Source: an uncultured archaeon
GTDB taxonomy: Archaea; Thermoproteota; Bathyarchaeia; TCS64
Assembly (NCBI GenBank): GCA_938048735.1
Contig: CALIUM010000015.1
Span: 52,599 to 116,598, forward strand
Direction of reading: 5' to 3'
Length of the DNA stretch: 64,000 nt
Every line of letters starts with the position of its first letter. The stretch's first letter is position 1. Positions 36,596-38,993 of the stretch are shown here, one piece after another. The notes under the pieces are model-generated. The model searched no databases, was not told the DNA's origin, and was given only the letters and a program-made list of their open reading frames with translations. A program made the translations under genes and the position numbers.

Positions 36596-37171
36596 TTATC
36601 TAGCTGGGTTTGATTTGAGCCAGGCTCCGAGCGTCCTGAATGCCCTAGCCCTGTGGGATATGGTGTTCTTCTCCTCTATGGTCATCTCACCGAAGGTTCT
36701 TCCATCCCCCTCGTCCGGTATGAAGATGGGGTCATATCCGAAGCCCCCTTCCCCCCGGGGTTCCTGTGAGATCCTCCCCCGAACCGAGCCTTGGAAGAGG
36801 CGTAGTTCGCATCCCTGCTTGAGGGCTATCACAGACTTGTAGTGTGCTCTTCTATCCTCGACGCCCTCCATGAGTTTCAATATCCCCGTAAGGCCTATCT
36901 TCCTCAGGGTGTAGGAGGAGTATGGGCCCGGAAACCCTCCGTATCGCTCAATAAAGAGGCCTGACTCCTCGGAGATTATTGGGCGTGGGTCGTTGATGGA
37001 TATCCTCTCAAGGCTGTGTTTGGCTATCTCCTCCAGGTCATCGGCCTGTATCTCGAGCTTCTCCCCCCTTAATAGGCGGAGGTCGCATCCATACTCGGAG
37101 AGGGTGAGCCTCCCCTCCTTAAACTTGTTTGGGTTACCCGTCAGCATCCATATCGTTCTCCCTCTTGACAT
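36596..37171 (-). CDS. XTP/dITP diphosphatase (RdgB/HAM1 family)
   Basis: Hydrolyses non-canonical purine triphosphates such as dITP and XTP to keep them out of DNA and RNA. 191 residues. N-terminal LTGNPNKFKE, SEESGLFIERYGGFPGPYSS, a catalytic-region GEGGFGYDPIFIPDE, and a C-terminal KNTISHRARAFRTLGAWL. ATG 37171 preceded by GGAGGGG; it overlaps the end of kae1-bud32 by 38 nt. Confidence 0.93.
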   Translation of the reverse strand: MSRGRTIWMLTGNPNKFKEGRLTLSEYGCDLRLLRGEKLEIQADDLEEIAKHSLERISINDPRPIISEESGLFIERYGGFPGPYSSYTLRKIGLTGILKLMEGVEDRRAHYKSVIALKQGCELRLFQGSVRGRISQEPRGEGGFGYDPIFIPDEGDGRTFGEMTIEEKNTISHRARAFRTLGAWLKSNPAR

Positions 37172-38834
37172 ATCTACCCCTCCTCTCTATCTCCCTCATC
37201 CTCCTTATCGCCTCCTCTGCCTCTGCCCCCATGATATTCCTGTAGCCCTCCTCGAAGGCCGTGGAGAGCTCCTTGACGTGGGGGAAGTGGGTGCTCATGA
37301 GCATCCTCCTCATGAGGTGGAGGTCCACCCCCCTCTTCTCAGCCTCCCTTGAGAGCTCTGCGAGGCCGAAGTCGATGAAGATTGGGGACCGCCCGTTCCA
37401 GATTATGTTGGATGTCGTGAGGTCCCCGTGGATTATACCAGCCCCATGCAGCCTGCCCGCCTTAACCCCTATGAGCCTGAAGAGGTTGATCCTCTCCTCC
37501 TGGCTGAGGCCCTCCAGGGCCTCCCTGACCCTCACCCCCTCGACGTACTGCATCACTATCTCCATTCCCTCCGGGTCGACCTGGTAGATGATAGGCGTGG
37601 AGACCCCCGCCCTCTTCGCCCTGTGGATGACCTCGGCCTCGTGCGCCGTCCTGTACCTCCTCAGCCTCTCATCCAGCTTCGGGTGTCTATAGCTCTTTTT
37701 AACCCTCCTTTTTATGATCACCCTCCTCCCATTCCAGTCTTCGTCGAGCCATAGGTCTGCCTCAGCCCCCTTGGATATCAGGACCATCTTCGAGCCCCTT
37801 GGCTCGGCGCCCTCATCCCGCCTGATCTCCAGCTCTGGCCTCGAGCCCTCCCTCCTCCATGGGGCTTCAACCTCGTCTATCCTCCAGTCGCTGTCTATGT
37901 GGCTCCTCTCCAGGGGTGTTGTCACCCCGTGGGTGTATGCTAGGATCCCAGTCCAGGCTATCATGGCCCCGTTGTCCGTGGCATAGGCCGTGGGTACGTA
38001 GTGGGGGGTGGCCCCGTGCTCCTCTGCTATGGACTGGATTATGGAGCGGAGCCTTCTGTTCGCGGCTACGCCCCCGGTGAGGAGGAGCTCGGGCTTCCTC
38101 GTGTGGGCTAGGGCCCTCTCCGTGACCTCCCCCAGCATAGCGTAGGCCACCTCCTGGAGGCTGTAGCAGAGGTCCTCGAGCCTCCAGCAGCCCCTCCTCA
38201 GCTCCTGGATGGCGGCTGTGAGGAGGCCTGTGAAGCTCAGGTCCATCCCCTTGACCACGTATGGGAGGGGGATGAGCCTCTCCCCCTTGAGGGCCATCCT
38301 CTCAACGGCTGGGCCGCCGGGATATGGCAGCCCCGCCTCCCTTGCGAAGACGTCTAGGCAGTTCCCGACGGCTATGTCTAGGGTCTCCCCGTATACCCTG
38401 TACCTCCCGGCCTCGAATCCCGCGACGATGGTGTTCCCACCGGAGACGTATAGGGTGAGGGGGTCCTCGGCTCCTGAGGATAATCGCCCGATCTCTATGT
38501 GGGCTACGCAGTGGTTGACCCCGACTAAAGGGACGCCGAGGTACGAGGCTAGAGCCCTGGCGGCTGTGGCCCCGGTTCTCAGGCAAGGGCCCAGGCCTGG
38601 CCCCCTGGAGAAGGCAACGATATCGATGTCTCCGGCCTCCAGCCCCGCCCTTTCTAGGGCCCTAGCTATGACCTCCCCGATCTCCATGGCGTGGTGGCGC
38701 GCCGCCTCCCTTGGGTGTATCCCCCCCTTCTCAGGGGTGTAGGTGCTCACCTCGTTGGCCAGGATGACACCGTCGGAGGAGGCTATTCCCACCCCCAGGT
38801 TGTCTGCTGTGGACTCTATGCCGAGGCAGATGAT
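37134..38834 (-). CDS. Fused Kae1-Bud32: tRNA t6A threonylcarbamoyltransferase and KEOPS kinase/ATPase; start codon non-canonical
   Basis: Kae1 (first about 340 residues) transfers threonylcarbamoyl to A37 of tRNA; metal His pair in NHCVAHIE, Asp in YATDNGAMIAW, SGGNT nucleotide loop. Bud32 (last 210) has VIIKRR, IIHGDLTTSNI and IDFGLAEL. The only usual start codon in the region, GTG 38792, would remove the conserved first strand. Reading upstream in frame gives I-ICLGIESTADNLGVGIASSDG, exactly the family N-terminus, starting at ATC 38834 (ATA 38843 is the only other AUN codon before a TGA). No ATG, GTG or TTG exists there. Fused form as in many archaea. Confidence 0.9.
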   Translation of the reverse strand: MICLGIESTADNLGVGIASSDGVILANEVSTYTPEKGGIHPREAARHHAMEIGEVIARALERAGLEAGDIDIVAFSRGPGLGPCLRTGATAARALASYLGVPLVGVNHCVAHIEIGRLSSGAEDPLTLYVSGGNTIVAGFEAGRYRVYGETLDIAVGNCLDVFAREAGLPYPGGPAVERMALKGERLIPLPYVVKGMDLSFTGLLTAAIQELRRGCWRLEDLCYSLQEVAYAMLGEVTERALAHTRKPELLLTGGVAANRRLRSIIQSIAEEHGATPHYVPTAYATDNGAMIAWTGILAYTHGVTTPLERSHIDSDWRIDEVEAPWRREGSRPELEIRRDEGAEPRGSKMVLISKGAEADLWLDEDWNGRRVIIKRRVKKSYRHPKLDERLRRYRTAHEAEVIHRAKRAGVSTPIIYQVDPEGMEIVMQYVEGVRVREALEGLSQEERINLFRLIGVKAGRLHGAGIIHGDLTTSNIIWNGRSPIFIDFGLAELSREAEKRGVDLHLMRRMLMSTHFPHVKELSTAFEEGYRNIMGAEAEEAIRRMREIERRGRYVKRENDMDADG

Positions 38835-38993
38835 CCGACCTATGTTTCAGCACCTAGGATCAGTCTTGGTGGCCGATAAAAAGGTTTATCGGTGTGGCTG
38901 GGCCGGGGATGGCCTCCCGCCTGAGCGGCCTCCGTGGACCAGAAGTATTTTAACCTTGTTGATTTATCTCTAATGTTCGCCTCGGGGAATTGG

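Follow-up and report, generated by a model that had tools for sequence, protein, structure and literature searches.

The kae1-bud32 gene of a genus of uncultured Bathyarchaeia is, in our view probably, translated from an AUA codon by an ordinary initiator tRNA with the anticodon CAU, and AUH start codons would be tolerated in this genus. The proposed start codon is found on the minus strand at positions 38841-38843 of the window, that is, of the whole 64,000-nucleotide stretch of contig CALIUM010000015.1 (contig C15 of the genome, here G000) that was analysed. The start region (38792-38850, minus strand) had been pointed out in a preliminary description, which held that kae1-bud32 carries no ATG, GTG or TTG at its conserved start and that it must initiate at some other codon. 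Both statements are borne out: the codons are exactly as described, and the same situation is met in all three species of the genus.

The gene, described as an essential tRNA-modification gene, is intact. Its coding sequence (37134-38843, minus strand) would comprise 569 codons if read from the AUA. A TsaD/Kae1 match (1e-83) with the GIEST segment and a RIO-type kinase are contained in a single frame, and the structures of the Methanocaldococcus jannaschii Kae1-Bud32 (3en9 and 2vwb) match the protein over its full length. The genome is a draft of 1.6 Mb in 30 contigs, and a search of it for a second kae1 found none. For comparison, two further species of the genus were used (G001 and G002), which are independent assemblies with a DNA identity of about 88-92%; over the part of the protein compared, Kae1-Bud32 of these species shares 94% and 97% identity, respectively, with that of G000. 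Within the first 100 codons the changes between G000 and G001 are 21 synonymous and 4 nonsynonymous, and such strong purifying selection means that the gene is not a decayed copy. Both the order of the domains in one frame and the single copy under purifying selection identify the gene as the Kae1/TsaD-Bud32 fusion of KEOPS. In this genus kae1 and bud32 form one continuous frame, while most other genomes of the family give two separate matches.

In G000 the minus strand reads TGA (38849-38847) AAC ATA (38843-38841) GGT CGG ATC (38834-38832) ATC TGC CTC GGC ATA GAG TCC ACA. The in-frame TGA (38847-38849, minus strand) bars any start farther upstream, and no ATG, GTG or TTG occurs between it and the invariant Kae1 N-terminus. 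The corresponding regions are GAC ATA GCT CGG ATC ATC in G001 and AAC ATA TCC CGG ATC ATC in G002. Inspection of kae1 starts in close relatives had been suggested in the preliminary description, and in these two species, too, the frame holds no ATG, GTG or TTG ahead of the conserved core, while the ATA is kept. The ATA is thus found at the same codon in three of three species, with variable triplets on either side; the codon that follows it differs in each species (GGT, GCT or TCC), yet always encodes a small residue (Gly, Ala or Ser). Since the gene is intact and the three species agree, the missing ordinary start is a feature that the genus as a whole conserves.

The preliminary description left the choice of codon between ATC and ATA, with ATC preferred on the grounds that the initiator Met of other Kae1 proteins falls on it. 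A non-standard start stands, but the preference for ATC is probably wrong and ATA is the better supported of the two, for the alignment with ATC holds for the distant euryarchaeal Kae1 proteins and fails for the closest relatives, in which the start is upstream. In relatives of the same family or order kae1 mostly starts upstream of the position of the first ATC, and in two of them exactly three codons upstream: locus L020 reads ATG GAC GAA GTC ATC TGC and locus L008 reads GTG GAG CAG CTC ATC TGC, the ATG and the GTG each aligning exactly with the ATA. Furthermore, the ATA is preceded by 7 nt by AGGTG in G000 and G001 and by GGGTG in G002. In G000 this Shine-Dalgarno-like motif (38851-38855, minus strand) was recognized from the 3' end of the 16S rRNA of G001, GGATCACCTCCTTA, in which the anti-Shine-Dalgarno sequence was confirmed; an altered anti-Shine-Dalgarno as the cause of the unusual start is thereby rejected for G001. 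The 16S rRNA gene was not found in the draft of G000. Shine-Dalgarno spacings usual in the genome are about 4-8 nt, a range into which the 7 nt fall. Because of the starts at the ATA position in L020 and L008 and of the AGGTG or GGGTG at 7 nt, ATA is preferred over ATC.

Translation from the first ATC (38832-38834, minus strand), with a product beginning MICLGIEST as in euryarchaeal Kae1, is therefore considered unlikely, even if it is the strongest of the competing explanations. In M. jannaschii Kae1-Bud32 the native Met aligns to this codon, which is as well conserved among the three species as the ATA, and AUC initiation is indicated for an ATP-grasp gene of the same genus (see below). However, most relatives in the family have CTC, CTG, GTC, GAG or CTT at this position, none of which is a possible start, and begin upstream; locus L016 does have a TTG there, but also a GTG upstream. 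From the first ATC the AGGTG would stand 16 nt away, and the hexamers directly before it (GGTCGG, GCTCGG and TCCCGG) are no conserved ribosome site, so that a conserved Shine-Dalgarno sequence at a usable distance is absent.

A TATA-box-like promoter element, TTTTTATC (38875-38882, minus strand), is conserved in the three species. It starts 39 nt before the ATA, whereas in those members of the family whose kae1 starts in frame at a GTG or ATG such an element is mostly found about 31-33 nt before the start (counted by hand). This difference in distance makes the role of AGGTG as a putative Shine-Dalgarno sequence unsure, as the 5' end of the kae1 mRNA may lie near it or downstream of it. The AGGTG also holds a GTG (38853-38851) that is one base out of frame, and the promoter-like element starts 29 nt before it. 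Initiation at this GTG, perhaps on a leaderless mRNA, followed by a +1 shift into the kae1 frame would make use of a codon that is conserved in the three species at that distance from the element and that matches in position the AAGGTG at which several relatives start in frame; in locus L023 of another genus (G018) an AAGGTG is likewise one base out of frame and kae1 has no good start, possibly through a draft error. Nevertheless, the reading is improbable. The codons between the GTG and the conserved core vary by species (VLKHRS, VRRHSS and VLEHIP), the frame does not look coding, no recognized slippery site was found by eye after the GTG, and the arrestin-like and ATP-grasp genes described below need no frameshift device.

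It is very improbable that the ORF caller was nearly right and that the true product begins at an internal GTG or ATG, hence without IICLGIESTADNLG. The GTG chosen by the caller (38790-38792, minus strand) is present in G000, but it is GTT in G001 and is therefore not the conserved start, and the conserved GIEST segment of Kae1 lies in the codons ahead of it; a start there would delete the conserved ICLGIESTADNLG, and this option is rejected. Rejected as well, with next to no probability left, is a start codon destroyed by sequencing or assembly error: G000 is a draft of 30 contigs in which some genes have starts disrupted relative to G001, but neither the base-calling error nor the ATG in a close relative that the preliminary description had named as counter-evidence was encountered, and three independent assemblies of three species concur at the ATA codon.

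The anticodon loop of the initiator tRNA is CUCAUAA in G000, G001 and G002, which is the ordinary form. An altered initiator tRNA is thus rejected as an explanation, and decoding of AUA by a normal Met-tRNAi would involve a third-position mismatch. From the conserved ATA and its alignment we infer that ribosomes initiate at this codon. The CAU initiator tRNA would pair with AUA, the third base being mismatched; pairing of the AGGTG 7 nt upstream with the tail of the 16S rRNA would help initiation if the mRNA includes this motif, and the product would begin M-(G/A/S)-R-I-I-C-L-G-I-E-S-T. A low expression of kae1-bud32 from AUA is likely, and the genus as a whole would tolerate starts of the near-cognate AUH type in a minor fraction of its genes, probably at a cost in expression. 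The U36-A37-A38 of the initiator loop is, we assume, what is expected of a t6A substrate, and the tRNA probably carries t6A37. The initiator tRNA genes of G000 (G000:C15:37786-37867) and G001 (contig C10, near 8193) have an insertion in the region of the T-loop that resembles an intron; that of G005 is of the uninterrupted form.

Other non-standard starts in the genus were sought by comparing approximately 0.88 Mb of G000 with 1.09 Mb of G001 (557 ORF pairs with at least 70% identity) and looking for conserved coding sequence ahead of the first ATG, GTG or TTG. Strong support for such starts comes from two more genes. An arrestin-like gene (G000:C5:90942-91541, minus strand; L312, with L313 in G001 and L314 in G002) carries ATA in G000 and G001 at the codon that is ATG in G002. 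The three start regions are TGA ATA TCC TTC CTA AAG AAG CTC in G000, ATA TCC TTT CTT AGG AAG CTC in G001 and ATG TCC TTT CTG AGG AAG CTC in G002. In G000 the TGA directly adjoins the ATA and the following NTG comes only at codon 56, which leaves the gene without an ordinary start there. The second gene encodes a fusion of an ATP-grasp (D-Ala-D-Ala ligase-like) and a GNAT domain (G000:C15:41185-42867, minus strand, L265; L266 in G002 and L267 in G001). Here G000 and G002 have ATC as the apparent start, and G001 and G008 (L269) have ATG; in each species of the genus this codon follows GGAGGTG by 7 nt. In G000 no further NTG occurs before codon 89, and there is an overlap with the end of the gene upstream. 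For kae1 the AUH codon falls on ordinary starts of relatives (ATG in L020, GTG in L008), and for the arrestin-like and ATP-grasp genes this correspondence is stronger. AUH starts would thus amount to roughly 3 among some 550 ORF pairs, a figure to be taken as an estimate only, since the cases were selected visually and the underlying list also contained noncoding or overlapping stretches. Two candidates were set aside: in a CaiB-like gene (G000:C8:9926-11197) a short gap puts the ATG out of frame relative to G001, and in a radical SAM gene (G000:C8:13763-14800) a TAG stands just before the conserved part, G001 having GTG. Taken together, the lack of an ordinary start in kae1 and the exchange of ATG for ATA or ATC in at least two other genes suggest that this lineage initiates some proteins at codons that are not normally regarded as archaeal starts.

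CTG was also met in the same comparison. A membrane-protein gene (G000:C3:4753-5796 and G001:C19:5913-6953) shows conserved coding before its first ATG (codon 23), and a CTG downstream of a GGAGGA stretch is the likely start in both species. CTG is likewise the likely start of a ParA/CooC-like ATPase gene of G001 (G001:C5:73708-74511), where G000 has TTG; it is placed 7 nt after GGTG.

Kae1 makes t6A37, probably also on the initiator tRNA, and in yeast the loss of t6A nearly doubles the detected non-AUG initiation (PMC4717488). As the modification restrains non-AUG starts in yeast, the weak start of kae1 could be a feedback device, in which a fall of t6A would raise initiation at AUA and so restore Kae1. 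We hold such a sensor to be an unlikely though attractive possibility; if true, the feedback loop would be like that of infC but act via tRNA modification, and weak kae1 starts would be a general tendency. A pattern match with hand counting in 135 Methanobacteriota genomes gave ATG in 30, GTG in 17 and TTG in 88, that is, TTG or GTG in 105 of the 135. Where starts could be aligned, at 19 loci, the genes neighbouring kae1 begin with ATG in 31 cases, with GTG in four and with TTG in none. TTG is dominant at the kae1 loci of Methanosarcinales, and ATG is used in the aligned loci of Methanomicrobiales. The support that these weak starts in other archaea may lend to feedback is suggestive only, because the counts include related and hence non-independent species, the control is limited to a few neighbouring genes, and Methanomicrobiales use ATG. 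The AUA start of kae1 itself would make the hypothesis directly testable, since Kae1 makes the very modification that affects the stringency of start-codon choice in yeast.

In a recent review of archaeal translation initiation, AUG, GUG and UUG are named as start codons (PMC7531240). That several intact genes have ATA or ATC in place of ATG, and that an essential gene is devoid of an ordinary start, would widen this set for archaea. It also has practical consequences, as gene callers truncate or misplace genes with AUA or AUC starts. A search of open-access literature turned up no description of a conserved AUA start in an archaeon. AUU and AUA starts are already established in bacteria, and what appears to be new here is a conserved archaeal AUA start.

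Bacterial IF3 checks initiation, and archaea have no IF3. Among the systems compared here, autoregulation is known only for the E. coli case of infC and pcnB. The closest parallels are found in Staphylococcus aureus, in which AUA is the start codon of infC and ccpN and the tested AUA and AUU starts yield about 10-30% of AUG (PMC13009471). The likeness extends to the conservation of the AUA across species for ccpN, to a Shine-Dalgarno sequence at proper spacing and to the function of the infC product, IF3, which acts on start-codon choice (PMC13009471). The S. aureus cases differ in being bacterial and backed by ribosome profiling and, for ccpN, also by reporter proof (PMC13009471), whereas the present case is archaeal, deduced from comparison and accompanied by a short putative Shine-Dalgarno sequence. 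The infC and pcnB genes of E. coli, cited in PMC13009471 as having AUU starts, also combine a near-cognate AUH start with a function in RNA or translation metabolism, but the codon is AUU there and AUA here. M. jannaschii Kae1-Bud32 (3en9, 2vwb) is the same fused enzyme, alignable over its full length, with an ordinary Met start that falls three residues after the AUA proposed here. Finally, a rare ATT start was inferred for a tubulin gene of an Asgard archaeon (Kariarchaeaceae), also in a draft genome and from a missing N-terminal strand, an alignment and a suitable ribosome site (PMC13394414). That case concerns one gene in one genome, while here three genes are compared across three species, and two of the three have ATG in a sister species.
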